Shown here: positions 26,856 to 53,137 of the stretch, one piece after another
Numbering within the stretch: position 1 is the first letter of the stretch
How the letters are laid out: every line of letters starts with the position of its first letter
From: a virus
Length of the DNA: 59,764 nt
IMG/VR virus record: IMGVR_UViG_3300017971_004765
Span: 1 to 59,764 of that record
Reading direction: 5' to 3' (one strand)
Translations under genes and position numbers: made by a program
The notes under the pieces: generated by a model
The model's input: the letters and a program-made list of their open reading frames with translations, nothing else
Database searches by the model: none
Told to the model about the DNA's origin: nothing

Positions 26856-27002
26856 TCACGGCTTTGGTCTGTATTTTCTACTGGGCTTACCAAGGAACTC
26901 CTTTATAGCGTGACATACCCACGCATTCCTGCTCCTGTCAGGGTAAGAACTACAGAAATCTATAAGATCATCTTTCAATTCGCTTGGTATCCAGATACTC
27001 AT
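26856..27002 (-). CDS. Ribbon-helix-helix-like DNA-binding protein
   Basis: The product has 48 residues from the ATG at 27002, which shares one base with the stop of the GT2 gene (TGATG). MSIWIPSELKDDLIDFC, then SRNAWVCHAIKEFLG is the strand-helix-helix pattern of MetJ/Arc-type regulators. As last gene of the cassette operon it could autoregulate the cassette or the portal promoter next to it. Confidence 0.65.
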   Translation of the reverse strand: MSIWIPSELKDDLIDFCSSYPDRSRNAWVCHAIKEFLGKPSRKYRPKP

Positions 27003-27787
27003 CACTTCGCTTTCGCTTCTGTCCAAGCTTTCATTATTCCTCGAATCATACTCGGGACGCCAATCCTCATCATACGTGCCGCTGGAATCTCTATCGGGAG
27101 GTTGTGCGCCAAGCACACCTTCGCGTGATAATACGCCTCTTTCTCCCGATTGTTCGATATGTTCCCTGTGTGCCGCCGATTGAGTGTGAGCATCTCTTTC
27201 AAATGACCGAATGTAAATCCCTCCTTATAACACCTGATATGATAATCCCAATCTTCAACGTTTAAGAATTCTTCGTTCCATGCCAGCCTATTTATAACTT
27301 TCATATCCCAGAGAATGCTAGAACCATTTATAAAATTAACATTGCAAAGCAAGTTAAAATCAAAGTCTTGAGAAGGAGAAGCAAAAGCTTGATTATCATC
27401 AGTTATCATAACTGTGTCCGTGTAACATATATCAACTGGGTTGTTCTTAATGTATTCTAGTTGCATCTTTATCTTGTCTGGTCTCCATTCGTCGTCTCCA
27501 GCAATCCAAGCAACATATTTACATTTGGATCTCAAGTTATTTAATATATGGTTGCGAATAACGTTATCAGTTGCAGGCAAACCCATATTTTTCTTATTTT
27601 CTATTAGGGTTATTTTAGGGTTTTTACCATATTTGTTTCGAAGGTTTTTGGTAAACTCTTTTTCAGAACCATCGTTACACATAACTATCTCTACGTTTTC
27701 TCCTTGTGCCAGAACACTTTTTACAGCTAAATCTATCATACCTGGGTTGCCATTGTATATTGGCATCATAGTAACAATTCTATCCAT
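27002..27787 (-). CDS. Glycosyltransferase family 2
   Basis: The product has 261 residues with a GT-A fold: VTMMPIYNGNPGMIDLAVKS at the start, VEIVMCNDGS, and the nucleotide/metal site AWIAGDDEWRPDK. A later NVEDWDYHIRCYKEGF segment is the acceptor-side 'E-D-x-D' motif. It should move a sugar from an NDP-sugar to a glycan. It overlaps the upstream methyltransferase by 8 nt and the RHH gene by 1 nt. Confidence 0.88.
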   Translation of the reverse strand: MDRIVTMMPIYNGNPGMIDLAVKSVLAQGENVEIVMCNDGSEKEFTKNLRNKYGKNPKITLIENKKNMGLPATDNVIRNHILNNLRSKCKYVAWIAGDDEWRPDKIKMQLEYIKNNPVDICYTDTVMITDDNQAFASPSQDFDFNLLCNVNFINGSSILWDMKVINRLAWNEEFLNVEDWDYHIRCYKEGFTFGHLKEMLTLNRRHTGNISNNREKEAYYHAKVCLAHNLPIEIPAARMMRIGVPSMIRGIMKAWTEAKAK

Positions 27788-28379
27788 TGTTTTTTCCCTC
27801 CATAAGTATCCATCTGTTATTTATCTCGTTATCCAGAGTTATATCGAAGTTCTCAATCTTACTAAAAGATGTTCTCAAGACACTTCCAAGTTCATAAGGA
27901 GTCATCTTATTTTTGCTGTTAACATAATCAGGGTGCTCTCTGTTCGGTGTCATAATGAAAAAGGATCCATCGTTTTTCATAACTCTATGAACCTCTGAAA
28001 CAAAGCCAATCTTATCGGTTACGAATTCTATTATTGCAATAGCCATAACTCTATCAAATATGTTGCTGCTGAAAGGTAAGCGGCAACAATCTGCCTTGAT
28101 AAATGGTATATTGGGTATTTCTTTTGCAGCGCAGGCTAACTTTGATTCATCTATGTCTATACCAACTGAATCTATATTAGAAGGCAAAAAAGATTCTAGT
28201 ACACCAACTCCGCAACCAATGCTTAGAAAGTACCCAGGCGGCAAGTTAGCTATTAGCGCTGGTAGAGCCATCCTGGGATCATTAAAGTCTCCCCAGAAAT
28301 AGTCTGGATACCTGGACCAATAGCTAAGAACTTTCCACATATATTTCTTTCGCATCTTCCTTGTCAAGTTAATTAACAA
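27780..28379 (-). CDS. SAM-dependent methyltransferase (class I)
   Basis: The product has up to 199 residues. SIGCGVGVLESFLPS is the SAM-binding glycine motif, VGIDIDESKL the acidic end of the second strand, and DRVMAIAIIEFV motif post-II; FFIMTPNREHP follows. The start may be TTG at 28379 or the ATG at 28355. In this setting it probably methylates a sugar or a lipid-linked glycan. Confidence 0.8.
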   Translation of the reverse strand: MLINLTRKMRKKYMWKVLSYWSRYPDYFWGDFNDPRMALPALIANLPPGYFLSIGCGVGVLESFLPSNIDSVGIDIDESKLACAAKEIPNIPFIKADCCRLPFSSNIFDRVMAIAIIEFVTDKIGFVSEVHRVMKNDGSFFIMTPNREHPDYVNSKNKMTPYELGSVLRTSFSKIENFDITLDNEINNRWILMEGKNNG

Positions 28380-29281
28380 TTATCTATAACATCTCTGTTG
28401 TACATCAATAAGAATATGGTGGGCCAAGTTTCACTCTCGCCACCAGTGCGAATAGGAATAGAACCGTCTTCTAGTTGATCTTCGTAAACAGTTTTCATAA
28501 GCAAATCTGCCTCATATTCCATACCTATATTATGCAAGTGGTATGCGCACTGTATATTTGCTCCAGGCATAGACCACGATCTATCAGAGGACCAAGCAGG
28601 AACTCTGCCATCAGGCATCAAATTTTTTGCTGCCCAGGCAGCCCCCTTCTCATATTCTGCTGGGAAATACTTTTCTATTCCATCGAGAGCATATGCATGA
28701 AAGTGGCTGAACACATATCTGGTTTTAGGATGACAATGAAAAGCGCCGTCATCCCTCTGTAAGTGCATAAGTCCGTTGAGATATGAGCGACTCATATCAA
28801 ATCTTTCAAATATGGGCATAAGCTTTATGTAGTGTGCCCCTGGCATAGTGTAATACAAATTCTCATTGTTCCAGCAACTTCCCTTTGAATCAAACATAGC
28901 TGGTAAATGACCTAGTGTATCCAATATAGTTTTTATCCTGTTTACCATCTGATGAGCCGCATTAAAATATTTCTCTTGATAACTATATTCCCACATATCC
29001 AGAAGAGCATCTGCGCAGATCATAGTATCGAAAACATAAGCTATATCTTCATTGCCGTCCCACGACAAGAAACCATTATTGTTTAAGTTAACAATATAGT
29101 TGGCACTACGAGTAGCGTAATCGTCCTCATCATACATAAGGCATACTTTAGTGTAATAGCCCGTTATCTCGGTATATGGATATATCTTATTCTTTTGATT
29201 CGGACTTGCGAGGACGCCCCCGTCCTCTCTTTGGCTTGCTTTGAGCCAATTCAATGCCCTCGACTCTGGACTCGATTTCAC
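28373..29281 (-). CDS. Alpha/alpha-toroid protein (glycosidase- or cyclase-like)
   Basis: The product has about 302 residues, starting at GTG 29281 or later. It has repeated helix pairs with short sequence marks ALNWLKASQREDGGV, LNGLMHLQRDDGAFHC and VYEDQLEDGSIPIRTG, as in six-hairpin glycosidases and terpene-cyclase-type toroids. Such proteins are found near surface-glycan genes. The first 95 nt overlap the AT-hook ORF in another frame. Whether it is an enzyme cannot be told; Asp and Glu residues are many but no family signature is clear. Confidence 0.6.
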   Translation of the reverse strand: MKSSPESRALNWLKASQREDGGVLASPNQKNKIYPYTEITGYYTKVCLMYDEDDYATRSANYIVNLNNNGFLSWDGNEDIAYVFDTMICADALLDMWEYSYQEKYFNAAHQMVNRIKTILDTLGHLPAMFDSKGSCWNNENLYYTMPGAHYIKLMPIFERFDMSRSYLNGLMHLQRDDGAFHCHPKTRYVFSHFHAYALDGIEKYFPAEYEKGAAWAAKNLMPDGRVPAWSSDRSWSMPGANIQCAYHLHNIGMEYEADLLMKTVYEDQLEDGSIPIRTGGESETWPTIFLLMYNRDVIDNC

Positions 29282-29357
29282 TTAGCTTCTCCTCCAAGGT
29301 TGCTATATAATCTATCAGCTCGTTCAGTTTTCTCTTGTTCTCGTTTATAGATTCCAT
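29187..29357 (-). CDS. Small coiled-coil AT-hook protein
   Basis: The product has 56 residues from the ATG at 29357. A helix (LNELIDYIATLEEKLSEIES) is followed by KPKRGRGRPRKSESKE, an AT-hook (GRGRPRK). The frame is open upstream as far as a perfect AAGGAGGTGATC box and would add INKLEVVPIAPFPGAH if an ATA codon were used. It overlaps the next gene by 95 nt. DNA binding is inferred from the hook. Confidence 0.5.
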   Translation of the reverse strand: MESINENKRKLNELIDYIATLEEKLSEIESRVEGIELAQSKPKRGRGRPRKSESKE

Positions 29358-29404
29358 ATGCGCCCCAGGGAAGGGAGCAATAGGTACTACTTCTAACTTA
29401 TTTA

Positions 29405-30427
29405 TTATTCGATCACCTCCTTATACAATTCTATCTCTGAATCTAATACCTTCTTCCTCGAGAAGTTGCGCTGTATGCGTTTCCTCCCTCTTTCTCCTTG
29501 TTTCTTCCATTCTTCCTCATCAACTATCAAGTCGTCTATCCTGGTAGCCATCTCTTCTATGTTTGTGACCCTGTAATACGGATCCATAAAATATGAGACA
29601 TCTTTATCTGGCTCATATTTATCTATAAATTCCTTTGCCCCAGAGCGGCAGAAAACTACTGGGCGCTTGCATGCCTGTGACTCCATAACTGGTATGCCGA
29701 AGCCGGTATATTCTGGTGGGTCGGCAAACAGGGTAACCTTGGATGACGATATCAACGTAGGGATCTCTGAATTAGGTACACCATCAATATGACTAAAACC
29801 ATAGCGCTCAACCTCAGAGAGCATAGGGCCGCGCCCCACGAATAAAACTTCAACATCACTCTGTACCCCAGCTGCAGCAGCGCAGACGGTAGGTATATCT
29901 TTATCACTTGCATCTAGCCTCCCAACGTGTATAATTCTATTTTCTGGCTCGCATTTCTCCTTAAATGTCTTCGTGTCCACATAATTAGGTATAAATTTTG
30001 TCTTGCCTATATGCCCAAAGTCTCTCATATACCTTACGTAGCTCTTCTGGGTAGCTATTATTGCTGAAGCAACATGCAAAGCATATATACGGCAACCAGT
30101 AAAATACTCAGCTTCTTTCTTATCATACTTCCTGGCTATATTGCACTCAACATCTATTCCGTGTAAACTGGGCACGAAAGGAACAGAATATTGCTGGCAG
30201 AAGGAAGCCACTATAGCTGATATTACGAAGCGCCCACCTTCCAGGGTGCGCACCACATCTGGCTCGGTTTGCTTCAAGAAGTCCCCGAATCTTCTAAAAT
30301 CTGTTTCGCCAGTTCTAAATACTACTACATCGTGACCCTTCTCATTATAACCCTTAGGTCGATCCCACCAGCGATCCTCGTCTGAATATGCTGACAATGG
30401 ATCATTAGGGACTATTGCTATTTTCAT
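29405..30427 (-). CDS. Glycosyltransferase family 4-like
   Basis: The product has 340 residues, GT-B fold. The N-terminal half has GYNEKGHDVVVFRTG; the donor half has IIHVGRLDASDKDIPTVCAA, VEVLFVGRGPMLSEVE and the E-x7-E region FGIPVMESQACKRPVVF. It overlaps the FemAB-like gene by 23 nt. It is one of four GT-B enzymes in the cassette and should add one sugar of the glycan. Confidence 0.88.
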   Translation of the reverse strand: MKIAIVPNDPLSAYSDEDRWWDRPKGYNEKGHDVVVFRTGETDFRRFGDFLKQTEPDVVRTLEGGRFVISAIVASFCQQYSVPFVPSLHGIDVECNIARKYDKKEAEYFTGCRIYALHVASAIIATQKSYVRYMRDFGHIGKTKFIPNYVDTKTFKEKCEPENRIIHVGRLDASDKDIPTVCAAAAGVQSDVEVLFVGRGPMLSEVERYGFSHIDGVPNSEIPTLISSSKVTLFADPPEYTGFGIPVMESQACKRPVVFCRSGAKEFIDKYEPDKDVSYFMDPYYRVTNIEEMATRIDDLIVDEEEWKKQGERGRKRIQRNFSRKKVLDSEIELYKEVIE

Positions 30428-31124
30428 AACACCATCTCCTGTATTCTACCAATTTTCCTCCGAATTGAGACTTGAACTTGTACGCGGCATCTCTTCTGCA
30501 GCCGCCCAGATCAAACCACTCGAATTTATTATCGTGTATAGCTTTATCTATTAAGCAGGACTGGTTGCCACCAGAGCCAAGCCAATAAAACATTTCTGGA
30601 TACATAACAAGGAATACGGCAAAAGATTTTAGTTCGCCGCTCTTATTGAAATAACCATAAAACTTTGCGTGCTTGGCGTCATCCATGAGCGCGAATATGT
30701 GCGACTTATCGTAGCTTTTGACGGGATGGTTATCCCATATCTTAAATATGTACCTAAGCTGAGGATAAGTCAACCTAAATATATATCCATTCTCTAGTTC
30801 CTTGCGTATATCGTAGCGGCGATCCTTTGATGGCGCATATGTATCTGGGGTAATTATATATGTCCTATCCTGTATTGGCACCCAATCCATCATCATAAAG
30901 TAAGTGTATCTAAGTTCACATTTATTTGAACCAGCAGCTATATTTTTTACTGCTTTCCAATAATCGTCGCTCGAGAACTTCGGTATAGCCTGCGAAATAA
31001 TAGTTGTATCAATATCATCTATATTAAATGCATATATAGTTTCGGCGCCTACCGTCTCCTTTATGGGAGTTATGTTTTTAGTGGCGCCCCATATGTTGTG
31101 CATCCATTCTGTTTGAAATATCAA
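30405..31124 (-). CDS. FemAB/GNAT-like aminoacyl- or acyltransferase, copy 1
   Basis: The product has 239 residues. The C-terminal part EWFDLGGCRRDAAYKFKSQF followed by GGKLVEY is the FemAB-family end ('D-L-G-G...F-K..F-G-G...y'). In bacteria these enzymes add amino acids to peptidoglycan; relatives in surface-glycan clusters are thought to acylate sugars. A second copy lies at 32501-33346. The acceptor here is probably an aminosugar made by the cassette. Confidence 0.72.
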   Translation of the reverse strand: MIFQTEWMHNIWGATKNITPIKETVGAETIYAFNIDDIDTTIISQAIPKFSSDDYWKAVKNIAAGSNKCELRYTYFMMMDWVPIQDRTYIITPDTYAPSKDRRYDIRKELENGYIFRLTYPQLRYIFKIWDNHPVKSYDKSHIFALMDDAKHAKFYGYFNKSGELKSFAVFLVMYPEMFYWLGSGGNQSCLIDKAIHDNKFEWFDLGGCRRDAAYKFKSQFGGKLVEYRRWCYENSNSP

Positions 31125-31384
31125 TCTGATAACCTCGCTAAGAATTCGTCGCCAGCTGCGGCACTCTCATAATAATGCGTATATATAAGTTGATCAGCGA
31201 ACCCGCAGGAACTACATCGAATTGCGCCTAATCCATGAAGCCATCCGTGCCAGTTACCACGTTCGTCGCATCCCTGCTCCATGAAGCAGGTCTTGCTCCC
31301 GCATTTAGGGCAGATAGTAGGAAGGATCTTGCTGTTCTTTTCATTTTCTGTTAATTTGCTATAAGTAAAAACTACCATATGCAT
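31121..31384 (-). CDS. Zinc-ribbon protein
   Basis: The product has 87 residues. CPKCGSKTCF near residue 24 and IRCSSCGF near residue 56 make two CxxC knuckles of a zinc ribbon with an intervening HGWLHGL loop. It overlaps its neighbours by 1 and 4 nt, so it is part of the cassette operon. It could hold partner enzymes together or bind nucleic acid; nothing in it says which. Confidence 0.6.
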   Translation of the reverse strand: MHMVVFTYSKLTENEKNSKILPTICPKCGSKTCFMEQGCDERGNWHGWLHGLGAIRCSSCGFADQLIYTHYYESAAAGDEFLARLSD

Positions 31385-31641
31385 TATATCGCCTTCTTCG
31401 CGGAAAGCACATCTTCTGAGGAAACCTTAATTGGGAGGTGCTCAGACATAGTTCTGTAATAGTGCATCTCTATATACAGGTCGCCCTCCCTGGCGTAGCG
31501 ATGAAACTTCCTGAATCCTAGTTTACCTTCTATAAGCTTCCATCCCTGATTTACCAAAAGCTCATCTATAGTGTTCATAGGGCCGTGGCTCATAGGAGTC
31601 CTATCACTTGGATACTCGGTTATTTCCATTATCGTGATCAC
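31384..31641 (-). CDS. Hypothetical protein in glycan cassette
   Basis: The product has up to 85 residues; it may start with GTG at 31641 (overlapping the previous stop as GTGA) or ATG at 31629. It is alpha/beta (NQGWKLIEGKLGFRKFHRY, LYIEMHYYRTMSEHLP). No family is recognised. Coupling on both sides shows it is a working member of the operon. Confidence 0.5.
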   Translation of the reverse strand: MITIMEITEYPSDRTPMSHGPMNTIDELLVNQGWKLIEGKLGFRKFHRYAREGDLYIEMHYYRTMSEHLPIKVSSEDVLSAKKAI

Positions 31642-32504
31642 CTATATTCAAGATACTCTATGGATTTTATAGCCGCATCTCCATTACCAAAATCTTCCTT
31701 TGTTACTCCATCAAATTCGTGGAACGGGCGCAGCGAAGTCACGGGGGTATCTAGCCATATAGACTCTCTGTATACTCCGCCAGAATCCGTATAAACGTGG
31801 TTAGCGTCACATATAAGTTTCAACATTTCTGAATGCTGTACTGGATCATTGACAATGAAATCCTTGGGTATCAGAGATGAATCAAAGTTATCTCTAACCC
31901 TTGGGTGCATTATCCACAATACGGGCAGATCCCTGGGGATCGTTTCTAGCATCTCTGAGAGCACTGGCATAGAATCTTGCCTGTGGACAGTCAGCAAATT
32001 GTATGCCTGATATAGTCTGTCCCCCTCTGTCAATGGCGGAATCTCCAGCAAGTCTAGCAGCACATCTCCCACAAAAACAGCATCCCCAAGACATCTTTCG
32101 TCTAGTAAGTTGTAATAAGACTGTTTCGTTGGACATAAATTCACATCTGACATATGGTCTACCCCCCTCCTGATAAATTCTTCTGGTATTGGGTCGGAAC
32201 ATCTCAAGCCCGCCTCTACGTGAACCAGGGGATAGTTGTATTTTTTTGCAATACCAGAAGCCTCAACCGTGCAGTTGCAGTCGCCATAAACCAAGATATA
32301 ATCAGGGTTATACTTAGCCAGCGGGTATGGGTCAAAGCCCCGTATCTGGGTGTCGTACTCCTCTGAGAACATCTTGCTCATCTCGAAGTCCCAGTGCTGA
32401 TCTAGCGACATAATCATATGTTCGCAATGATCCTTAGCCGCTCTTTCAATGGCGGCAACCTTTATAAATTGTGGGCGCGTGCCCACCAGCGATAGTAGCT
32501 TCAT
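31638..32504 (-). CDS. UDP-N-acetylglucosamine 2-epimerase-like (WecB family)
   Basis: The product has 288 residues from the ATG at 32504 (ATGA overlap). Motifs in order are LSLVGTRPQFIKVAA, ILVYGDCNCTVEASG, LVHVEAGLRC, LLTVHRQDS and YTDSGGVYRES, all WecB/MnaA landmarks. It should interconvert UDP-GlcNAc and UDP-ManNAc or a similar 2-epimer pair. It is about 80 residues shorter than usual; the missing part lies between the N-terminal strands and VYGDC, so activity may be altered. Confidence 0.8.
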   Translation of the reverse strand: MKLLSLVGTRPQFIKVAAIERAAKDHCEHMIMSLDQHWDFEMSKMFSEEYDTQIRGFDPYPLAKYNPDYILVYGDCNCTVEASGIAKKYNYPLVHVEAGLRCSDPIPEEFIRRGVDHMSDVNLCPTKQSYYNLLDERCLGDAVFVGDVLLDLLEIPPLTEGDRLYQAYNLLTVHRQDSMPVLSEMLETIPRDLPVLWIMHPRVRDNFDSSLIPKDFIVNDPVQHSEMLKLICDANHVYTDSGGVYRESIWLDTPVTSLRPFHEFDGVTKEDFGNGDAAIKSIEYLEYR

Positions 32505-33346
32505 AACCACAACACGTACCTTTTATATTGCTTATATATACCGTTATACTTACTCTTAGAGCGCTTAATACCCTCGTCCTTGCTATTAGGTTCAGGCGAT
32601 GGGGTGACCCCGCCAAGATCATAATAACTGATTCTGCGCTCCCTGGCAATATCCAAGGCCCCCATACGAATAGGTTCTATTGGATACACCTTGCTTGGTA
32701 ACTCAGTTACCCTGGCTACGTGAACCTCTTCTATCCAATCCTTCCCGCATAAGAAAGACATAGCTGATATTAGTTCATTATCAGAGTTATAGGCGCCAAG
32801 CGTAAATGTTGACTCATTTCTCCAAGCCCATATCGCATCAAAGCATCCTCGAGGCCAGGGCGCCAAGCAGAGATCCTGTCTATGCATAAGGTATAATTTG
32901 TGGTACTTTTCAAAGTCATCTTTATCTGATATGAGTTGTATATAGCACCCAGCTTTATCAAAGTTTCTGCAGTTCTGGCGCACCTTCTTTCCTGGGCGCC
33001 AATCCTCGTCTTTAAGATCTATTAGGAATGTTGCCATATCTGTATATCTAAGATTGTTGCCCTGCTCGTATATGTCGTGTATTTCTTCACCGTCACAAGT
33101 ATTAAATGGGTGCTCAACGAAATCAAATATGCTAACGCCATTATTTCTGCATATGTTTATAGCTTCCTTGAATTCTAGGGAACGATCCTCTACTATAGGA
33201 AAATACATAGTCTTTACCCATTTCTTTCCATAAGAATCCAGGGTGACTCGCAGATTTGCACCGCTTCCAAGGGTTAAGCATTGCTCACCCATCATCTTTA
33301 CGTACTCTGGGTAAAATGGAGTATGATCGAATGGCACAGGGATCAT
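32501..33346 (-). CDS. FemAB/GNAT-like aminoacyl- or acyltransferase, copy 2
   Basis: The product has 281 residues from the ATG at 33346, which overlaps the stop of the upstream glycosyltransferase as ATGA. The C-terminal end YYDLGGVTPSPEPNSKDEG followed by RSKSKYNG is the FemAB pattern with an F-K pair partly replaced. Middle strands (FTLGAYNSDNELISAMSFL) match the GNAT core. It is related in layout to the 30405-31124 protein but clearly diverged, suggesting two acceptors. Confidence 0.68.
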   Translation of the reverse strand: MIPVPFDHTPFYPEYVKMMGEQCLTLGSGANLRVTLDSYGKKWVKTMYFPIVEDRSLEFKEAINICRNNGVSIFDFVEHPFNTCDGEEIHDIYEQGNNLRYTDMATFLIDLKDEDWRPGKKVRQNCRNFDKAGCYIQLISDKDDFEKYHKLYLMHRQDLCLAPWPRGCFDAIWAWRNESTFTLGAYNSDNELISAMSFLCGKDWIEEVHVARVTELPSKVYPIEPIRMGALDIARERRISYYDLGGVTPSPEPNSKDEGIKRSKSKYNGIYKQYKRYVLWL

Positions 33347-34347
33347 TTTGGTTTGCTCCTGGCTACACTCTCTTCTATTACGTCTACCAATAGGCGCGCT
33401 TGTGTCTCGTAGTCGTATCTCTTTTCTACCCATTCGCGCATATGCGCCGACGCCTTGGTTTTGTCGCGCTCACTTAGATTGCTCCACCAGCTTAACATTG
33501 TTTTTAATTCATCAAAGTTATCCCACACGCATTCAGGTGGATACATCTCATTTGCCCCATCCCAATGGCGCACCATAGGATACAAACCTGAAAGCATACC
33601 TTCAGCTATGACACAATGTGTTCCTTCCTCTAGGGAGGCGGACAATATTATACTGTTGTCTCTAAACATACTTGATAATTCTTCTTGTGGTACTTTAGGA
33701 GAATACGTAACATTTTTTATCTTTCTAGTCTTTATTACGTCCTGGCAATTAATCCAATATTCTTTGCCATCCTGCTTACCAGGGTCGCCAACTATATTCA
33801 AATTCCAATCTGGCATAGTGCTCATAAATTCTATCATTTCGTAGTGACCCTTCTTCCAGTATATGTTTCCAGCCATCATTATTTCGTTACCGTAAGTTTT
33901 ATCTATTGGTATATCAAATAACTCTGCATTGTAACCGTTATTTATTAGGTGCTGCCTAGATGGTTTCCTCTCTATCCACTGGTTGAATTTTCTCTGGCAC
34001 TGCGGGGCAACAAAGATTAGATCATTAATTACTTCCCAGGGTAGCGTATGAGCAAACTGTTCGTATAGCTCTATTCTATGCAGGCGCACAACAACAGGAA
34101 TTTCTAGCTTGTTTATAGCCTTCCATATTGCCACATCCATAGCCAAATTTTCTGCAAATTCCACATACGCCACATCTATATCGTCGAACATACGGAAGAA
34201 GCGAGCCCTATCAATGAAGTTGTCCCTAGTGAGCAGCATCTCATTCTTTCCTAACGCAAAGAACTTTAGATTCCACTTGCGGCGCTCCATCTCGCTAAAA
34301 ATATTACCCATAAAATTGTTATTCATACTAAATATACCAATATTCAT
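33343..34347 (-). CDS. GT-B glycosyltransferase
   Basis: The product has 334 residues. The start MNIGIFSMNNNFMGNIFSEM fits a first Rossmann strand; the second half has IMMAGNIYWKKGHYEMIEF, LNIVGDPGKQDG and ILSASLEEGTHCVIAEGML (the E-x7-E area). It acts on an NDP-sugar donor, with unknown acceptor. It is coupled to the FemAB-like gene by ATGA. Confidence 0.82.
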   Translation of the reverse strand: MNIGIFSMNNNFMGNIFSEMERRKWNLKFFALGKNEMLLTRDNFIDRARFFRMFDDIDVAYVEFAENLAMDVAIWKAINKLEIPVVVRLHRIELYEQFAHTLPWEVINDLIFVAPQCQRKFNQWIERKPSRQHLINNGYNAELFDIPIDKTYGNEIMMAGNIYWKKGHYEMIEFMSTMPDWNLNIVGDPGKQDGKEYWINCQDVIKTRKIKNVTYSPKVPQEELSSMFRDNSIILSASLEEGTHCVIAEGMLSGLYPMVRHWDGANEMYPPECVWDNFDELKTMLSWWSNLSERDKTKASAHMREWVEKRYDYETQARLLVDVIEESVARSKPK

Positions 34348-34364
34348 TTTTTACACCATTTATT

Positions 34365-34679: not shown

Positions 34680-34680
34680 T

Positions 34681-36986: not shown

Positions 36987-37383
36987 AACCCTTCCATACC
37001 CCCTTGTTTACAGCTGGCGCGCCTGCCCAGAGTTCCCCGTCCAGCACCATAGTCCCCCTCTTGACAAAACTATTCGCGCCAATAATTCCGCCCCTCCCTA
37101 TAAAAACATTTGGTTCTATTACGGCATTGCTGCCAATGAATACATCGTTATCAATAGTTACGCTAGCCTTGTATGATTTGCCGCCCTCGTTTGTGTGCGT
37201 GTATATCTTTACCCCTGCGCATATAGTAACGTTGTCGCCAATAACAATGTCCTTATGGTAACCGTCCAGAATAACCCAGGGGCCAATCCAGCAACACTTG
37301 CCCATCTTTACGTTGCCGCTAATCAGCCGCTCGCACTCGCCAGCGAACTCGAGCGTCCTGACAGAATTACTATACTCGCTCAA
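36973..37383 (-). CDS. Hexapeptide-repeat acyltransferase, copy 1
   Basis: The product has 136 residues from TTG at 37383. Hexapeptide turns IVIGDNVTICAGVKI, VTIDNDVFIGSNAVIEP and VFIGRGGIIGANS build a left-handed beta-helix, followed by the usual WAGAPAV end loop. Members acetylate aminosugars or sugar hydroxyls; a His near IYTHTNEGG may be the catalytic base. It overlaps both neighbours by 14 nt. Confidence 0.85.
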   Translation of the reverse strand: MSEYSNSVRTLEFAGECERLISGNVKMGKCCWIGPWVILDGYHKDIVIGDNVTICAGVKIYTHTNEGGKSYKASVTIDNDVFIGSNAVIEPNVFIGRGGIIGANSFVKRGTMVLDGELWAGAPAVNKGVWKGYEKP

Positions 37384-38077
37384 ACAACATCACTATACCA
37401 TTATATACATCTTTACCCTTTTCCTGGTAAGTAATAACTTCCCTGCACTCGAAACCATTCTCCTTAAGAATCCTTGATGACTCAAGCGCGGGATCCGGGT
37501 AAGTCTGTATCAAAACGTAATGCACATTCGGGAGGGTCTTCAATGCGCCAGCCAAAACCTTAGGATCATATCCATTTACAGTTATCTTCAATACATCTAT
37601 ATTATTGATATTATGGTTATGGCAAAAATTATCCAAAGTTTCGGTAGTAACATTGATAGGAATCTTCTTCCCAGGTCTATATTTCTTTATCATAGATTCT
37701 CCAGAAACACCATCAGACTCAGTGTAGAGCTTAGTTTTCTTGCCGCCAACATCGGAAAGCGCCAGCATAAAGCCGCTAACCCTGACCCCATAGAGAGAGG
37801 CATTCGCTTTCATACAATAGAACGTAATGGGATTGGGTTCAAAAGCATATATCTTGCCTTTCTTACCAGCTGCCAGCGCCGCTGGGATAGTGTACTCGCC
37901 AGTGGTGGCGCCCACATCGAATATAACGTCGCCAGGAGAAATAATATCTATGTATCTCTTGTGTTTATCCACAAATGAAAGCGCCCAAAAAATTATAGAA
38001 GAATCTATAAATGGGGAACACCATTTTCTACCGTCTTTTAGATGGGCAGTATAAACCTTGTAATCCTTGTCTGGCAC
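37370..38077 (-). CDS. FkbM-family methyltransferase
   Basis: The product has 235 residues from GTG at 38077, which shares one base with the stop of the upstream gene and has GGGGTGG before it. DVGATTGEYTIPAALAAGKK is the SAM motif, IYAFEPNPITFYCMKANA the second strand and IDVLKITVNGYDPKVLAGAL the FkbM signature. These enzymes O-methylate sugars in many surface glycans. Confidence 0.85.
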   Translation of the reverse strand: MPDKDYKVYTAHLKDGRKWCSPFIDSSIIFWALSFVDKHKRYIDIISPGDVIFDVGATTGEYTIPAALAAGKKGKIYAFEPNPITFYCMKANASLYGVRVSGFMLALSDVGGKKTKLYTESDGVSGESMIKKYRPGKKIPINVTTETLDNFCHNHNINNIDVLKITVNGYDPKVLAGALKTLPNVHYVLIQTYPDPALESSRILKENGFECREVITYQEKGKDVYNGIVMLFERV

Positions 38078-39372
38078 TAAAACCACCCCAATTTATCTTC
38101 GTATTTGTCCAAATACCCCTTCAGGGCAGGGAAGGCGCCCTCATCACCGATATACGCGCCGTCTATGTAAACAGCGTCTCCCAGGTGACCAATAGTCCTG
38201 GCAGCAACCAAGTTTTCGTTCCTGGGGGAGCTTTCTAGGTTCGCTATAGCAGTAAAGACGCCACCTTCTATCTTCTCTAGCGCCCAGCTATCAGTGAATA
38301 TCTGGCGCTCATAGGGTAGGGTATTAAGTGCATATCCATCCAAAACAGAAGGAACATTTACACCTGCAGCGTCCAAAATAGTTGGAACGATATCAACCAA
38401 GCTACAGAGACGCTTGGGGTGCTTGGAAACTGGGAAACCCTTGGTAATTAACGGTATTCTTATAGCTTCTTCGGATACGGATGGAGAATTACAGAAGTTT
38501 CCATTATGCTCCATCTCCCCGTGATCAGATGTAAGTATTATTTTTACCTCAGGATCATACTCTTCTAGTTTTACTATCAGGTTGGCGAGCTTGGAGCAAT
38601 CAAATAAGCTAACGCCTTCAACGTATAGCTTTACCATCTCCTCTAGCAATGAGTTATCTTCCTTAAGTTTCTCGCGCAGAGCAAAATCGAAAGCTCTAAA
38701 GTATGCCAGCTCTTGAAGAGCATATGGGAAGCTGTTATAACCACCTATCCTGTTTACTTCTTCTAGCGCTCTTTCCGATAAGTCAAACAAACTAATGTCG
38801 TGGCGATCACATATTCTCTTTATCCTTGGTATATATGAACCATTGTTTTGTGATATTCTATCTGCCCCACCAGTTTCATAATAATAAGGCTTATGAACAT
38901 CGAACAGGTGGAAAAAGAAAAAGTTGTTTTTCCCAACGATATTATTATCGAAAACATCTTCTATATACATATCTTCGTCGCCCTCAAGGGGCTCAAACAC
39001 GAGATTAAATCCACGAGTTATGCGCTGCGTCTCGAAAGTTGGATGCTCTACCCAGGCAATGTTGAAATATCCATTGCTACTAAGCATTTGCGGCAATGTC
39101 GGGTAACTCTTGGTCATCCCAGAAAAGAACGTAACCGTCTTGTGCTTATTCGGGTAAACCCCCGTCAACATAGATGCGTGCGAAGAAGGAGTATATGACG
39201 CGGGCGCATATGCGTTAGGAAAGAATTGTCCGTCCTCAGCCAGGAAATCCATAGTTGGAGTATACACCATATCTTTGGTTATGCCATACTTTTCTAGTTT
39301 AGATATATCGTTGAAACAAGATAAACAATCCAGGCGCAAATCATCCACAGAAATCAATACAATATTAGTCAC
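38077..39372 (-). CDS. Alkaline-phosphatase superfamily (sulfatase-like) enzyme
   Basis: The product has 431 residues from GTG at 39372 (GTGA overlap, GGAGGTG upstream). Metal sites are NIVLISVDDLRLDCL at the start and ILTSDHGEMEHNG near residue 290. The nucleophile region reads SYTPSSHASMLTGVYP, with Thr or Ser where sulfatases have Cys/Ser, so it is more likely a phosphatase or phospho-sugar/phosphoglycerol transferase than a formylglycine sulfatase. It may add or remove a phosphate-type group on the glycan. Confidence 0.78.
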   Translation of the reverse strand: MTNIVLISVDDLRLDCLSCFNDISKLEKYGITKDMVYTPTMDFLAEDGQFFPNAYAPASYTPSSHASMLTGVYPNKHKTVTFFSGMTKSYPTLPQMLSSNGYFNIAWVEHPTFETQRITRGFNLVFEPLEGDEDMYIEDVFDNNIVGKNNFFFFHLFDVHKPYYYETGGADRISQNNGSYIPRIKRICDRHDISLFDLSERALEEVNRIGGYNSFPYALQELAYFRAFDFALREKLKEDNSLLEEMVKLYVEGVSLFDCSKLANLIVKLEEYDPEVKIILTSDHGEMEHNGNFCNSPSVSEEAIRIPLITKGFPVSKHPKRLCSLVDIVPTILDAAGVNVPSVLDGYALNTLPYERQIFTDSWALEKIEGGVFTAIANLESSPRNENLVAARTIGHLGDAVYIDGAYIGDEGAFPALKGYLDKYEDKLGWF

Positions 39373-40364
39373 CAGCGCACCTCCATAGGTTCCCAAAATT
39401 CCTCTATACCGTAATGCTCCTTAGCTGCCTGTTTCCATATCTTTGAATGCTCGTCCCACCAGTATTGATCGTCGCCAAACATAACGTACTCATAGAAAGC
39501 CTCCATTCTAGGGGCGACACTCTCGAAAGATAGGAACCAGGATGCCCAGCTGCGCGACTTCTCCTTCATAAGTTTGCAGAAGTCATCATTGGACGCGAGG
39601 GCACTAAGAACATTTCTCAAGTCTTCTTTATTGCCAACATTTATTATTGGGCACATAGGATTATGAACCCTGACTATTGGTTGAAGGCGGCACACAACAG
39701 CCATACCCATAGCGAGCGCCTCTTTGCTCGAGCCGCCAAAGTTACCAGCCTTGAACTTATCGAAATAAACGTCGCACTCTTTCTTTGCTTCTATGGCGGC
39801 GCTCGGAGGCTGATCCTCGATTATAGTTAGCTCAACATCATCCAGGGAATTACAAACCTCTATCAAAACGTCGGTGTCCTTGTAGTCCCTGCGAGAAGGA
39901 GTCTGGAGAACTTTCAGTGGGTGTCTTGGCTCGGGCCACTCAGGATAAGGAATACTCATAGCGTTAATATCAAATGGAATAGGGATATAATGGAACCTTG
40001 GGACAAAGCGACCAAGTTCTGGGACAGTTATAATTGGAATCTTGTATTTGGCTTGATAATTCCAGAAACCCCTGGACAGCATTCTAAGAAATCCGCCCCT
40101 AAACTCGAGGACAAAATTTGGGTGCTTATCTAAACCAAACTGAGTAGGGAAAGTGTCGCTCTGGTGGATAACATCTGCCCACTCTATGGCTTCCTCTGGA
40201 GGCTTAGCATTATTTGTGTCTTTTCTTGCTTCAGACATATCATAGTTGCTCATACCATTCAGAGACCAGCACTTGGCATTACTATTCGTACACTTGTTTA
40301 TAGCCTGGGCGCGGAACCAGTTGCCGCTGCCCATATCTGTCCAAGAAACATATAATATATTCAT
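39369..40364 (-). CDS. GT-B glycosyltransferase, paralogue B
   Basis: The product has 331 residues from the ATG at 40364, overlapping the PIG-L stop as ATGA. It is a paralogue of the 34681-35697 protein over its full length. The donor loop is GGSSKEALAMGMAVVCR. Paralogues A and B lie 4 kb apart in the same operon, which argues for two related glycosidic links. Confidence 0.75.
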   Translation of the reverse strand: MNILYVSWTDMGSGNWFRAQAINKCTNSNAKCWSLNGMSNYDMSEARKDTNNAKPPEEAIEWADVIHQSDTFPTQFGLDKHPNFVLEFRGGFLRMLSRGFWNYQAKYKIPIITVPELGRFVPRFHYIPIPFDINAMSIPYPEWPEPRHPLKVLQTPSRRDYKDTDVLIEVCNSLDDVELTIIEDQPPSAAIEAKKECDVYFDKFKAGNFGGSSKEALAMGMAVVCRLQPIVRVHNPMCPIINVGNKEDLRNVLSALASNDDFCKLMKEKSRSWASWFLSFESVAPRMEAFYEYVMFGDDQYWWDEHSKIWKQAAKEHYGIEEFWEPMEVRW

Positions 40365-40966
40365 TTCTTCACATACCTGATACACTCGAAGCCTTCTGCG
40401 TACTCTACGCCAACCTTCCAGCCAACGTGCTCTGCCAGACCCCTTATCTTCTCGGGCTTAATGTATAGCCTGCCCCCCTGACTGGCATACGAATCCAGGG
40501 CCTCAATCTTTTTATCTAATGCAGTGGACCTAATGGGGATAAATACATCATATGGCTCTACGCGGCAATTCCAGGGTTGTATGTAACCAAAAACACTGCA
40601 AGACTTGAAAACCTTTATTGCTTCCCTGTACACGGCATTATGGTCCTGGTGCATATCTTCTGAGCAGGGCACATATACTGCCTCTATACCTGGGAGCTTG
40701 AAACGGATCTTCAACTGTTCCATAATTACGCGAATTTTTTCTCCATCAGAATCCATATGCTTATTGGTTAAATCATACTTGAATCTTAACCATTTACATA
40801 CATTCAAGATATCCAGGGAAGAATTCCACTCGTTCTCGAGATTTTCGCTAACGTCGGGGCACATAGAGAAAGTAACCACGGCTGCCTCGTCATCCCTCAG
40901 AGTAGACAGATAGCCGCCGCAGCCCAGCTCAACGTCGTCTGGGTGCGCCCCGAAGAAGAGGATCAA
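40361..40966 (-). CDS. PIG-L/LmbE-family N-deacetylase
   Basis: The product has 201 residues from TTG at 40966, overlapping the previous stop as TTGA. FFGAHPDDVELGCGG is the zinc-site signature with its Asp pair, and EDMHQDHNAV supplies the second metal His and the general base region. It should remove the acetyl group from an N-acetylated sugar, making the free amine used by the FemAB-like or hexapeptide enzymes. Confidence 0.87.
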   Translation of the reverse strand: MILFFGAHPDDVELGCGGYLSTLRDDEAAVVTFSMCPDVSENLENEWNSSLDILNVCKWLRFKYDLTNKHMDSDGEKIRVIMEQLKIRFKLPGIEAVYVPCSEDMHQDHNAVYREAIKVFKSCSVFGYIQPWNCRVEPYDVFIPIRSTALDKKIEALDSYASQGGRLYIKPEKIRGLAEHVGWKVGVEYAEGFECIRYVKK

Positions 40967-41937
40967 GACAGAGCGTCCTCCAGAACGTTGCAGACATATC
41001 TAATCTCTCCCTCGTCAAGACCAATATAGAAAGGCAGCGTAACAAAATTATAATCAGTAAACTCTGCCCACGGATCAATATAATCCTCGTAGTTAGCCAT
41101 CTTGTGCAAGCGGCTGGTCCCCTGGCAACACTCTACGCCACGAATCTTAAGATTATCTAAAATATCACTTACATCTAAAGAAGACCCAGGAACCATAACA
41201 ACAAATGACTGGTAATTGTAATCATAGTTGACATCTCTTCCTTCCTGACCCCACACGGATACACCATCTGGAAGATACCTATTGTACTTGTGTGCTAAGT
41301 AATGCCTCCTAGAAAGTATAAAATCAAACTTATTTAGCTGAACAATACCAATGGCAGCCTGGATGTCTGACAACCTAAAGTTGTATCCAAAGTCGAAACC
41401 CGTGCGCTTGCCATGATAGATAATGTTCCTGGCCCTATCGTATAGCCTCTTATTGTTGGTGCACAGGCAGCCCCCTTCGCCAGTGCTAACTGGCTTGCGG
41501 GCGTGGAAAGAATAACAGGCGATCTCTGGTGGTACACTAGTATCAGCCACGCTGCCCAGCGAGCAGGCGCAATCCCCGATGGGCCACTCCCTGTCGCCAA
41601 CCTTGAGCCCTAGCACATCGACCCCCATATCGAAGTCGCGATCAGTTATCAGTGGCTCGTAACCGGCTGCCAGCACCTGAGTGAGCGTGGCGGGGAACGT
41701 TATATGTGGGATCCTTATGGTGTCCTTGTCCCAGAACGGATAGGTATGAAGAGCAGCTAGCAATGCAGTAGAACAGGATGACGTAGCAACCCCATAATCG
41801 TATCCCTCAATCTTGGCGACCATCTCGGCAAACTCGTCGGCCTTCTCGCCGCCAGCTACCCAGCCAGAGTCCAAAACATCACCAACAGCATCCAAAGTTC
41901 CCGGAGGGAAATATGGCTTACACATACGAACATTCAT
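40963..41937 (-). CDS. DegT/DnrJ/EryC1/StrS-family sugar aminotransferase
   Basis: The product has 324 residues. The PLP lysine is K148 in CYSFHARKPVSTGEGG; D122 in WPIGDCACSLGS lies where the ring-nitrogen Asp is expected; GYNFRLSDIQAAIGIVQ is the conserved dimer segment. It should transfer an amino group to a keto-sugar nucleotide. It is somewhat shorter than the usual 370 residues. Confidence 0.88.
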   Translation of the reverse strand: MNVRMCKPYFPPGTLDAVGDVLDSGWVAGGEKADEFAEMVAKIEGYDYGVATSSCSTALLAALHTYPFWDKDTIRIPHITFPATLTQVLAAGYEPLITDRDFDMGVDVLGLKVGDREWPIGDCACSLGSVADTSVPPEIACYSFHARKPVSTGEGGCLCTNNKRLYDRARNIIYHGKRTGFDFGYNFRLSDIQAAIGIVQLNKFDFILSRRHYLAHKYNRYLPDGVSVWGQEGRDVNYDYNYQSFVVMVPGSSLDVSDILDNLKIRGVECCQGTSRLHKMANYEDYIDPWAEFTDYNFVTLPFYIGLDEGEIRYVCNVLEDALS

Positions 41938-42170
41938 CTATATACCTCAAAAACTTTCTTCCAACCCGGCTCCAATACCTCGTTGCATCTCTTACAAAAT
42001 CTAACCCTATGCACAACGCAACTATTAGGAAAACTAACTTCCTTTGTTACGCAACCAGGGTGACCAAATACTCTGCACCGAAAATTGTTATATTTATTCC
42101 TAACAGACGTTAATAGATTCCCACCAAAGAGTCCAGTCAACTGTTTCCTCAAGTCTAGAGATAAACTCAT
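41934..42170 (-). CDS. Zinc-ribbon protein
   Basis: The product has up to 78 residues; the start is uncertain because the ATG at 42170 overlaps the epimerase gene by 71 nt, and a shorter form starting near 42095 without a standard codon is possible. FRCRVFGHPGCV and RFCKRCNEVLEPGW give Cys pairs of a ribbon. It ends with an ATGA overlap to the aminotransferase. Confidence 0.5.
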   Translation of the reverse strand: MSLSLDLRKQLTGLFGGNLLTSVRNKYNNFRCRVFGHPGCVTKEVSFPNSCVVHRVRFCKRCNEVLEPGWKKVFEVYR

Positions 42171-42954
42171 TGTCGATGTCTCTAAATCTATCCTCGTCGG
42201 AGATATCAGGAATCTTATTTCTCTCCTTGTCAATTACTATTTCACCATCTATTCCCAAGGATCTGACAAGCTCTATTAAGTCTTCAGTGGATACAGACCA
42301 TACCTTTCTTATGGTAGGCACATCCGAAACACAATTAATAGACGCCCTAGCCACATCCTTAACGTACTCAAAATTAAGGGTTGTATGCCCGCTATACACA
42401 GTAAATGGGTTACCATTAATCCAATTGTGCAGCAGCATAGGAAGAAACGCTTTATACTGAGGGGCAGGCTGCCTGGGACCAAACATATTCCAGGGTTTCA
42501 TAATGGATATATTTAGCCCTTTAGAAATAGCGCCCGCGCAAGCCATATCGCATGCGGCTTTCAGGGCGCCATAAGAATTCTCGTATGGAACGTTAGCCTT
42601 GGCGGAAGATATTTGCACCATCTTGTCGAAAGTCTTGATCTCCATTTCCCTTATGAGCGTGAGAACCTCACCCGTGGCTTCCTTGAAAGCATCAACGTAA
42701 GAAGGAGTGCGCACCCAGGCGCAATTAATTACGCCGTCATAGCCCCCATATGAGAACCCGTCTATGTCAGAAATATATACCCCAGGGTTGCCCTCCCATA
42801 TCGTAGGGGAATCGGAGCCCTCCTTCTCTATATCCCACCATAGTTGCCCAGTAACCAGCAACGAAACAACATCAACGTCTATGTTTTGTTTCAGCGCCTC
42901 CTCGCAAATAGCCGAACCAAGGAAGCCGCAGCCGCCAATAACACAAATCTTCAA
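42100..42954 (-). CDS. NAD-dependent sugar epimerase/dehydratase (extended SDR)
   Basis: The product has 284 residues from TTG at 42954, with GGAAGGAT upstream. ICVIGGCGFLGSAICEEAL is the NAD-binding GxxGxxG motif; NSYGALKAACDMAC holds the Tyr-x-x-x-Lys pair; KPWNMFGPRQPAPQY and FEYVKDVARASINC are extended-SDR marks. It likely makes or reshapes an NDP-sugar used by the aminotransferase next door. Confidence 0.87.
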   Translation of the reverse strand: MKICVIGGCGFLGSAICEEALKQNIDVDVVSLLVTGQLWWDIEKEGSDSPTIWEGNPGVYISDIDGFSYGGYDGVINCAWVRTPSYVDAFKEATGEVLTLIREMEIKTFDKMVQISSAKANVPYENSYGALKAACDMACAGAISKGLNISIMKPWNMFGPRQPAPQYKAFLPMLLHNWINGNPFTVYSGHTTLNFEYVKDVARASINCVSDVPTIRKVWSVSTEDLIELVRSLGIDGEIVIDKERNKIPDISDEDRFRDIDNEFISRLEETVDWTLWWESINVC

Positions 42955-42955
42955 A

Positions 42956-43318
42956 CTAATCCTTCCATACCCAGCTATTAGGCGCCAGATTAGTGCCATC
43001 CTTTATAACCACATTCGGATCAATAACACTGTTGGCGCCAATAACCACGTCACTTCCTATAACTACATCTCCAGTCACAACATCATAATCAGGGCTGCCG
43101 TCGGGCTTGCCCCTAATCGTCTTGACAACCCTAGTGCGGATCATAACTCCCTCTTCTATAATAGATCTGTCGCCAATATCTATGTTGCCAGAGCTGGCAT
43201 CCAGCAAAGAAAATGGCGAAACAACTACCTCTTTGCCAACAATTATATTTTCATTTCCGACCAGTATGCGGTCGCCATCGTCCTTTCCCAAAAGAATATT
43301 TCCCTTCAAAATAGGCAA
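42956..43318 (-). CDS. Hexapeptide-repeat acyltransferase, copy 2
   Basis: The product has 120 residues from TTG at 43318, preceded by AGAGGTG. Turns such as NIIVGKEVVVSPFSLLDAS, IDIGDRSIIEEGVMI and GDVVIGSDVVIGANSVIDP form a left-handed beta-helix. It lacks the usual His and end loop of copy 1, so it could be a non-catalytic or a different acyltransferase. Confidence 0.75.
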   Translation of the reverse strand: MPILKGNILLGKDDGDRILVGNENIIVGKEVVVSPFSLLDASSGNIDIGDRSIIEEGVMIRTRVVKTIRGKPDGSPDYDVVTGDVVIGSDVVIGANSVIDPNVVIKDGTNLAPNSWVWKD

Positions 43319-43329
43319 AAAAACACCTC

Positions 43330-44352
43330 TTATATACCCAAGTAATATGACTGAAATACCCGCTGCAAAGTGGATCCTATTGGCGGCGGCGGGAACCTCT
43401 TCTCGTTTACTACTTCTCCCTCAGCTAACCTGACAGCCAAATATGGAACAGAGTAATCATTGGAAGCCACGAAAGACGAGATCCTTGGGTTAACCTCTAT
43501 CAAGTGATCGTCTATGAATTGTATGTTCACCCAGTAATTAAAGCCATATTCCTTGCAGATATGCTTAGCCATAGCCAGATTAGATGGATGCCTAACAACG
43601 CTAGCCATAGTGCAAACGTGGTCGCGCTTATCCTTAACGTGCAACACCTGGGACCATAGAACCTCGCCATCCTTGCACAAGCAATTAACGAAATACTCGT
43701 TACCAGTGTAATAGGGCATAACTACCCACTTCTTGCTGGAATCGTTAAACCACTTAGAAGCAGTAAACATATTCAGGAAGCGCGGATATGACACATAAAG
43801 AAACCCTGGTTTAAACTCGTTCCTAGCTATGAAATCATCTATCTTTTTAATAATGAATACCCCTCGGGTGCCCCTACCCCCGAGAGGTTTGACAACAAGA
43901 CCCCTCTTATCTACTCCCATCTGGTTCAATCGGAGCAGCATAGATTGCCCCGTCGCAACCTTGTATGGGATGCCAAACCTGTCGTATAGGGCAGCCTTGT
44001 TGGAAGCCTCCAGTATGACATCGGGGCTGGAGGCGAGTACCTTGTTTACCCCATCTCGAGAACCATTCAAGACCTTGGACTTTTGTAGCTTGGCGGCATC
44101 CATAGAGTTAAGAGGGAAGATCCACTTACAGGACTTAGCCGTGGCTTGAACAATAGAAATATATTTAGAATCAGAAACCTCTGGAACCACAACAAACCTG
44201 TCGTACAACCACCTATTGTTAGCCCAATCGTTGGAGTCGGTGCCAACGAGAAAAACAGAGGGATGAAACTTCTTTATGTCGTGGGCAATGGCTTCCCCAT
44301 TTGGTGCCCCACAGAATGGAATCATAATTCTCGTATCAGGAATAAACGACAC
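43330..44352 (-). CDS. ATP-grasp ligase
   Basis: The product has 340 residues from GTG at 44352, leaderless behind the cassette promoter. An N-terminal Rossmann part (RIMIPFCGAPNGEAIAHDIK) precedes the ATP-grasp core: RGLVVKPLGGRGTRGVFI is the glycine-rich phosphate loop, and YWVNIQFIDDHLIEVNPRIS the metal-binding strand. It resembles CarB-like ligases of surface-glycan clusters that link an amino acid or other acid to an amine. It is the first gene of the cassette operon. Confidence 0.85.
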   Translation of the reverse strand: MSFIPDTRIMIPFCGAPNGEAIAHDIKKFHPSVFLVGTDSNDWANNRWLYDRFVVVPEVSDSKYISIVQATAKSCKWIFPLNSMDAAKLQKSKVLNGSRDGVNKVLASSPDVILEASNKAALYDRFGIPYKVATGQSMLLRLNQMGVDKRGLVVKPLGGRGTRGVFIIKKIDDFIARNEFKPGFLYVSYPRFLNMFTASKWFNDSSKKWVVMPYYTGNEYFVNCLCKDGEVLWSQVLHVKDKRDHVCTMASVVRHPSNLAMAKHICKEYGFNYWVNIQFIDDHLIEVNPRISSFVASNDYSVPYLAVRLAEGEVVNEKRFPPPPIGSTLQRVFQSYYLGI

Positions 44353-44374
44353 CTATAAGTATATATACGTCATC

Positions 44375-44391
44375 CTTTATAAACCTTTCGG
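44375..44391 (-). promoter_or_regulatory. BRE/TATA promoter of the glycan cassette
   Basis: On the minus strand it reads CCGAAAGGTTTATAAAG, placed 23-31 nt upstream of the GTG at 44352. It lies in the 41-nt gap after the large terminase stop and is the only strong promoter found before the portal gene, so it probably drives the whole 17.5-kb operon. Confidence 0.75.
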
Positions 44392-46537: not shown

Positions 46538-46558
46538 AGAAAAGAATAAGTCGCGTGA

Positions 46559-53120: not shown

Positions 53121-53137
53121 ACAAAAACACCACAATA

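Follow-up and report, generated by a model that had tools for sequence, protein, structure and literature searches.

A large multi-enzyme glycan-synthesis operon inserted between the terminase and portal genes of a predicted archaeal tailed virus

In the 59,764-bp IMG/VR record IMGVR_UViG_3300017971_004765, which was analysed over its full length and is referred to below as the window, sequence analysis confirmed a large operon of predicted glycan-synthesis enzymes inserted between the genes for the large terminase subunit (TerL) and the portal protein. Its completeness is unsupported, glycan genes also occur outside the gap, and it is not unique in kind. The main genes of the window are on the minus strand and include those for TerL, the portal protein and an HK97-type major capsid protein (MCP), the combination by which a tailed virus (Caudoviricetes) is recognized. 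The interval from the TerL stop at 44394 to the portal start at 26738 is 17,655 bp long and is filled by about 24 tightly packed open reading frames (ORFs) on one strand, nearly all overlapping or coupled (Table 1). Nineteen of the 23 junctions are overlaps and the single spacer of more than 17 nt measures 123 nt; a short coiled-coil-like ORF that runs into the next gene may lie in this spacer at 29290–29360 (minus strand). An earlier annotation of this DNA, hereafter the original prediction, had given limits for the block that we reproduced, with its ORFs running from 44352 down to 26856. A start at 27116 was discarded, as this position falls within the GT2 glycosyltransferase gene, which the last ORF of the block overlaps by ATGA.

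The predicted interruption of a normally tight terminase–portal order was upheld when gene order was compared in proviruses, isolates and IMG/VR contigs. No more than one small ORF separates the TerL and portal genes of Thermus phage G20c and of the archaeal viruses Hardycor1, HRTV-27, HRTV-25 and HGTV-1. A match to the portal of the window was found in 12 of 394 Halobacteriota genomes, and at the nine provirus loci of this phylum that have both a portal and a TerL relative the gap between them is −1 to 825 bp. A search of IMG/VR with an archaeal TerL alignment gave 80 loci; a portal of the window's family was detectable at 29 of them, and at 24 of these 29 the gap was 591 bp or less. At two of the others (L201 and L211) a large gap is occupied by genes that by eye resemble further structural genes and not glycan genes. 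IMG/VR searches with the portal alone, the MCP alone and the ATP-grasp protein alone returned no relatives. Since adjacency is the rule in relatives, the block is, judged by gene order, a real insertion and a large one relative to its kin.

The archaeal proviruses (L119–L128), Hardycor1, HRTV-25, HRTV-27 and HGTV-1 have archaeal hosts and share with the window homologous TerL and/or portal, MuF and MCP (the latter in three), but their TerL and portal genes are adjacent and no glycan block was detected in the stretches examined. In Tunturiibacter phage Tunturi_4 a glycosyltransferase gene likewise separates TerL from portal, but this is one gene compared with about 24 here, and its host is bacterial. 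From the relatives of TerL, portal and MuF in Halobacteriota genomes, we predict for the window an archaeal host belonging to this phylum or close to it. An mcrA search found the gene absent in most hosts of the archaeal proviruses, which are therefore not methanogens as a group.

The record also carries archaeal transcription signals. A B recognition element (BRE)/TATA pattern, VVGAAANNTTTATAW, occurs 20 times in the window compared with 0.08 times expected, always on the minus (coding) strand, and one of these sites sits between the TerL and ATP-grasp genes, in agreement with the BRE/TATA box originally proposed for the block. Seventeen of the 20 sites are in the small-gene region beyond 53 kb. 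A longer shared box, TTTATATACTC, is present in 10 of the 20, all of them before small genes at 53,100–59,700, and is lacking in the block promoter; the 18-mer CGAAACATTTATATACTC from this extended promoter had no match in IMG/VR. The window has exactly two copies of a different element, TTTAAGTCACG, one preceding the small ORF/terS/terL unit and one preceding the portal; the 38-nt stretches that contain them agree at 27 of 38 nt, compared with 22 of 38 for the next best. This element was found post hoc in a repeat scan, and its chance value is not a corrected probability. The pair suits a single promoter type flanking the insertion, as expected if the insertion split one late unit.

Significant Pfam matches to glycan-type enzyme families were obtained for 14 block genes, and NCBIfam agreed at the subfamily level with scores below the equivalog cutoffs. 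Most of the enzyme list in the original prediction was thereby verified by profile search, including GT2, GT-B, DegT and PIG-L, while a sulfatase-like gene had been missed and the FemAB assignments were weak. Catalytic motifs are intact in the DegT, PIG-L, SDR, radical SAM and FkbM proteins, and in the WecB-like protein except for one pattern as written. The count of four GT-B and one GT2 glycosyltransferases also stood, with the GT2 and two GT4-type enzymes recognized by Pfam and the remaining GT-B pair (starting at 34681 and 39369; 43% identical) by family profile: neither member has a Pfam match, but a profile of 12 family sequences matched PglA and other GT4 structures with a best value of 5e-9. 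A GT-B paralogue and the possible toroid protein (28373–29281) had no match among phage GenBank records. Two FemAB-like acyltransferases had been proposed, and the pair was not established, as 32501–33433 reached only sub-threshold values, 30405–31124 matched nothing, and PF13480 and TIGR03019 profile searches of the whole record gave no match. Single-sequence AlphaFold models of 28373–29281 and 32501–33433 had a mean pLDDT of 37 and 31, respectively, and were not used.

The B12-binding radical SAM enzyme is a candidate for C-methylation or another modification of sugars. No signal segment is present in the sulfatase-like enzyme, and in place of the Cys/Ser-x-Pro-x-Arg formylglycine signature it has TPSSHASMLTG, with Thr at the likely nucleophile position; given the absence of the sulfatase signature, it may act as a phosphoester or other transferase. 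With several glycosyltransferases and its own sugar-nucleotide enzymes (WecB-like, SDR and DegT), the block appears to have the composition of an autonomous glycosylation system. Neither Pfam nor NCBIfam gave a match in the block to a flippase, polymerase, oligosaccharyltransferase or lipid-carrier (polyprenyl-phosphate) glycosyltransferase, the components that mark a lipid-linked oligosaccharide or surface-polysaccharide locus. A credible membrane segment was found in none of the block proteins; two windows were borderline, in the N-terminal parts of the radical SAM and SDR proteins.

Table 1. Genes and regulatory elements of the glycan block and its surroundings, in order of decreasing position
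Feature	Position	Strand	Evidence or remark
Possible polysaccharide-deacetylase-like protein, weak	48505–49245	−	HDID motif; chitin deacetylase (PDB) 0.07
WbqC-family glycan protein	47270–47872	−	PF08889 2.7e-28; upstream of terS/terL, outside block
Second copy of TTTAAGTCACG element	46554–46591	−	Upstream of small ORF/terS/terL unit
Small ORF ahead of terS/terL	46367–46537	−	Position
Probable small terminase subunit (terS)	45691–46374	−	Position only; no Pfam match; PHROGs weak (phrog_645 'Rnase E' 4e-4)
TerL	44394–45812	−	Family match; ATPase and nuclease motifs kept in alignment with phage and archaeal-virus TerLs
BRE/TATA promoter of block, CCGAAAGGTTTATAA	44377–44391	−	Directly 3' of TerL stop, ~25 nt before ATP-grasp start (leaderless spacing)
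ATP-grasp ligase (ATPgrasp_Ter/PylC-like N domain); first block ORF	43330–44352	−	PF15632 7.8e-13
Left-handed beta-helix (hexapeptide) protein	42956–43318	−	PF00132 6e-12; short; usual catalytic stretch without His (by eye)
Extended SDR, NAD-dependent epimerase/dehydratase family	42100–42999	−	PF01370 3.4e-16; GGCGFLG, YGALK motifs
Doubtful 99-aa ORF overlapping SDR gene	41934–42233	−	Zn-ribbon-like, below cutoff
DegT/DnrJ/EryC1/StrS sugar aminotransferase	40963–41937	−	PF01041 9.5e-44; PseC/LegC-like below equivalog cutoffs; pyridoxal-phosphate lysine motif intact
PIG-L-family de-N-acetylase	40361–40966	−	PF02585 3.6e-9; AHPDD, HQDH intact
GT-B glycosyltransferase paralogue 2	39369–40385	−	Family profile to PglA/GT4 structures
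Sulfatase-like enzyme (alkaline phosphatase superfamily)	38077–39396	−	PF00884 7e-22
FkbM-type methyltransferase	37370–38086	−	PF05050 3e-14
Hexapeptide acyltransferase-like protein	36973–37383	−	PF00132 2e-12
B12-binding radical SAM enzyme	35694–36986	−	PF04055 6e-30, PF02310 4e-19; CPYHCTFC
GT-B glycosyltransferase paralogue 1	34681–35697	−	Family profile
104-aa ORF	34365–34679	−	CxxC zinc-ribbon-like motifs
GT4-type glycosyltransferase	33343–34347	−	PF00534 1.2e-7
Possible FemAB/GNAT acyl- or aminoacyltransferase	32501–33433	−	PF13480 (Acetyltransf_6) 0.018, PF02388 (FemAB) 0.036, both below cutoff
WecB-like non-hydrolysing UDP-HexNAc 2-epimerase	31638–32510	−	PF02350 3.5e-38; TIGR00236 1e-29 (below equivalog cutoff); most active-site motifs present
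85-aa ORF	31384–31641	−	Unassigned
87-aa ORF	31121–31384	−	Zinc-ribbon-like motif
239-aa ORF, FemAB-like by eye only	30405–31124	−	No match in family profile searches
GT4-type glycosyltransferase	29405–30427	−	PF13692 5.6e-11
302-aa protein, possibly alpha/alpha toroid	28373–29281	−	No match in family searches; low-confidence all-helical model
Class I SAM methyltransferase	27780–28379	−	PF08241 1.5e-15
GT2 glycosyltransferase without membrane segments	27002–27787	−	PF00535 3e-18
48-aa ribbon-helix-helix-like ORF (by eye); last block ORF	26856–27002	−	ATGA overlap with GT2
TTTAAGTCACG element (late-type promoter candidate)	26757–26794	−	Upstream of portal unit
Portal protein	25266–26738	−	PF04860 1e-15, PF06074 6e-14
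MuF-like head protein	24617–25288	−	PF04233 1.3e-6
MCP, HK97-type	21163–22086	−	PF25209 1e-13
GT-B glycosyltransferase among structural genes, outside block	19347–20558	−	PF13692 1.6e-5, PF00534 9e-6, just below cutoffs

The block between TerL and portal does not hold all of the glycan genes, as a WbqC-family gene lies upstream of terS/terL and a further GT-B gene among the structural genes; with these two outside the gap, glycan genes surround the terminase genes. A NodB/polysaccharide deacetylase assignment for 48505–49245 was rejected because PF01522 was negative and the PDB match was single and weak. The WbqC-family gene is adjoined by an Endonuclease VII/HNH-type gene (47903–48316, minus strand; PF02945, 2.7e-24), a possible mobility factor. 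A tail-region protein (3610–4584, minus strand) has a possible H-type lectin domain (0.0016, below cutoff), by which the virus would bind glycans as well as make them.

Glycan cassettes beside head genes were also found in six TerL-related viral contigs (L002, L151, L153, L155, L182 and L183). Their TerLs are homologous to that of the window (31–36% identity), and the TerL and portal proteins of the other five are related to one another and to those of L002. The cassettes include DegT, SDR, glycosyltransferases, methyltransferases, and B12-radical SAM or ATPgrasp_Ter proteins. L002 has a polysaccharide-synthesis SDR and a DegT gene before TerL and, after the MCP, a glycosyltransferase, a UDP-sugar dehydrogenase, methyltransferases and a rhamnosyltransferase-like gene; L151 has a B12-radical SAM gene, L155 a match to the B12-radical SAM enzyme of the block, and L182 an ATP-grasp protein of the family found in the block. 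L183 encodes, between TerL and a portal-like protein, a hexapeptide enzyme and a GFO/IDH dehydrogenase. The six differ from the window in that their portals have no detectable relation to its portal, their GC content is lower, they have no significant BRE/TATA motif, and the cassettes mostly follow the MCP and do not split TerL from portal. The order in this lineage is TerL, portal and MCP followed by varied cassettes, in which LicD-like and sulfotransferase-like genes were noted by eye and B12-radical SAM by profile; few Shine-Dalgarno-like sites were seen. In another contig, L011, GT2 and GT-B genes lie between portal and MCP.

To these observations we give, with even confidence, the reading that a virus-owned operon makes modified (amino)sugar nucleotides and builds from them a decorated oligosaccharide in the cytoplasm, most likely directly on virion proteins. 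With substrates and the order of steps inferred from the enzyme families, the WecB-like epimerase and the SDR would produce a 2-epimerized and/or keto sugar nucleotide, to which DegT would add an amino group. The hexapeptide, ATP-grasp and possibly FemAB-like enzymes would then acylate or aminoacylate this group, and PIG-L would remove N-acetyl groups. The sugars would be linked by the GT2 and the four GT-B enzymes, after which the FkbM, class I and B12-radical SAM enzymes would methylate the chain or modify it in other ways, and an ester would be added or trimmed by the sulfatase-like enzyme. Because the block proteins have no credible membrane segment and no carrier, flippase or oligosaccharyltransferase family match, the expected products are sugar nucleotides in solution and a chain assembled in the cytoplasm. 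The block thus encodes no export, flipping or lipid-linked assembly, which suits the modification of soluble virion proteins. Virions of tailed viruses assemble in the cytoplasm, so that direct glycosylation of virion proteins would need nothing more.

Glycosylation of virion proteins is also consistent with the setting of the block among head genes, with another GT-B gene among the structural genes, and with the codon usage of the block, which correlates with that of the head genes (r = 0.84; head versus tail genes, 0.52). The recurrence of glycosyltransferase, DegT, SDR, B12-radical SAM or ATP-grasp genes beside head genes in related contigs points the same way. Several points weigh against it. 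The enzyme breadth is typical of cell-surface glycan loci, related genes are grouped in Halobacteriota genomes, several block ORFs are unassigned, and the host is a predicted one. Moreover, the block promoter belongs to the BRE/TATA class concentrated at 53–59.7 kb, a presumed early region, and not to the terS/portal element, so the block is possibly expressed before virion assembly. A fuller version, which we put forward only tentatively, is that a multiply modified (acylated and C-/O-methylated) aminosugar oligosaccharide is made complete in the cytoplasm independently of lipid carriers and attached to head or tail proteins by an operon that resides in the packaging/head module and recurs in the TerL-related lineage.

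The original prediction of a complete, unusual aminosugar glycan was retained in part. A multi-enzyme glycan block is present, but nothing in it is identifiable as a carrier glycosyltransferase, a flippase, a polymerase or an oligosaccharyltransferase, the SDR matches the family without pointing to a particular dehydratase, and completeness is unsupported. An aminosugar is a reasonable inference from the DegT, WecB, PIG-L and acyltransferase genes, although the genes do not identify the sugar itself.

The main rival, to which we assign a substantial but less than even probability, is that the operon remodels the surface glycan of the infected archaeon (S-layer N-glycan, glycolipid or exopolysaccharide) through host lipid carriers and export. 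Such remodelling could exclude superinfecting viruses, change receptors or shield the infected cell; a comparable proposal, of altered host lipopolysaccharide (LPS), exists for the 24 LPS genes of cyanophage P-SSM2 (PMC2984593). Apart from this precedent, it would account for the broad enzyme set, the use of the same promoter class as in the presumed early region, and the DegT, SDR, hexapeptide and GT-B relatives grouped in Halobacteriota genomes (L131, L132 and L134), and the PIG-L and sulfatase-like enzymes fit it. However, the block encodes no flippase, polymerase, oligosaccharyltransferase, lipid-carrier glycosyltransferase or membrane protein of any kind, its sulfatase-like enzyme has no signal segment, and both the block and the cassettes of the related contigs are placed by head genes. 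The lack of a membrane protein, flippase and oligosaccharyltransferase is why we favour glycosylation of the virion over host-envelope remodelling.

The relatives at the three Halobacteriota loci share 20–41% identity with the block proteins, and since they cluster at such distances the block probably descends from an archaeal surface-glycan locus by a transfer that was not recent. Similar genes are known from cellular surface-glycan loci, and a second genome with the exact block was not found; both points would fit a chimeric assembly or contamination by a piece of host chromosome. We consider this very unlikely, as codon usage and GC content run on from the head genes, both junctions are clean, on one strand and between genes, a BRE/TATA site of the viral class lies exactly at the entry junction, the rare TTTAAGTCACG element precedes both terS and portal, and glycan genes occur elsewhere in the record and in the six related contigs. 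The block-versus-rest split in codon usage is not unusual among random splits. The operon is an insertion and appears to be stably integrated. That it is cargo with no role in a virion or surface glycan, such as a decayed or horizontally passing island, is similarly improbable: some ORFs are unassigned and one hexapeptide protein is short, but almost every junction is an overlap or a coupling, most of the enzymes checked keep their catalytic motifs, and none of the block genes shows a visible break. Least credible of all is hypermodification of viral DNA bases with sugars or amino acids, because, while glycosyltransferases, ATP-grasp, radical SAM and PAPS-reductase-family genes, all present in or near the block, can be part of DNA-modification clusters, the larger ORFs scanned included no gene for thymidylate synthase or dCMP hydroxymethylase and no deazaguanine gene, and WecB, DegT, PIG-L and the sulfatase-like enzyme are sugar-nucleotide or glycan enzymes.

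The related contigs and P-SSM2 also show that the block is not without parallel. The comparison with P-SSM2 covers gene number and arrangement: this tailed virus, too, has some two dozen genes for surface-glycan synthesis; these form two clusters in a bacterial T4-like phage, whereas here a single coupled operon lies between TerL and portal in a predicted archaeal virus. Virus-encoded glycosyltransferases of mycobacteriophages Che8, Corndog and Myrna glycosylate capsid and tail-tube proteins, according to PMC12363180, which cites Freeman et al. 2023; the enzymes are described there as single glycosyltransferases, and no multi-enzyme sugar pathway is reported. In Mimivirus a cluster of nine genes linked to the fibre glycan includes those for a sugar aminotransferase and an acetyltransferase, and Mimivirus and chloroviruses combine sugar-nucleotide synthesis, glycosyltransferases and modifying enzymes for virion glycans (PMC4691112), but they are unrelated giant viruses of eukaryotes with other enzyme sets and genome contexts. 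Glycosyltransferases go unmentioned in the text of a study on haloarchaeal tailed viruses (PMC8651126), a study of 38 archaeal proviruses contains no word beginning with 'glyco' (PMC11705971), and our partial coverage of the literature yielded no description of a block of this kind in a tailed virus of archaea.

If glycosylation by this operon is real, a 60-kb archaeal virus spends more than a quarter of its genome on a custom glycan, its head module can house a large replaceable glycan cassette, and autonomous viral glycosylation becomes directly testable outside giant viruses. The six related contigs allow a comparative study of which sugars are made, on which protein and for what purpose, and the B12-radical SAM enzyme, the ATP-grasp enzyme and the GT-B pair are candidates for new sugar chemistry.

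No terminal repeats were found in the record, and it is incomplete at its start, where an ORF (2–895, minus strand) is cut by the window end. This ORF encodes a prenyltransferase/squalene-cyclase alpha-alpha toroid domain (PF00432, 2.8e-9) and adjoins tail genes, an odd position for such a domain. Beyond the terminase genes, a PAPS-reductase-family gene (50010–50861, minus strand; 4e-41) has relatives near TerL in a provirus locus (L125) and a viral locus (L166), and a protein of the RNA ligase family is encoded at 51132–51842 on the same strand (PF09414, 2e-16).

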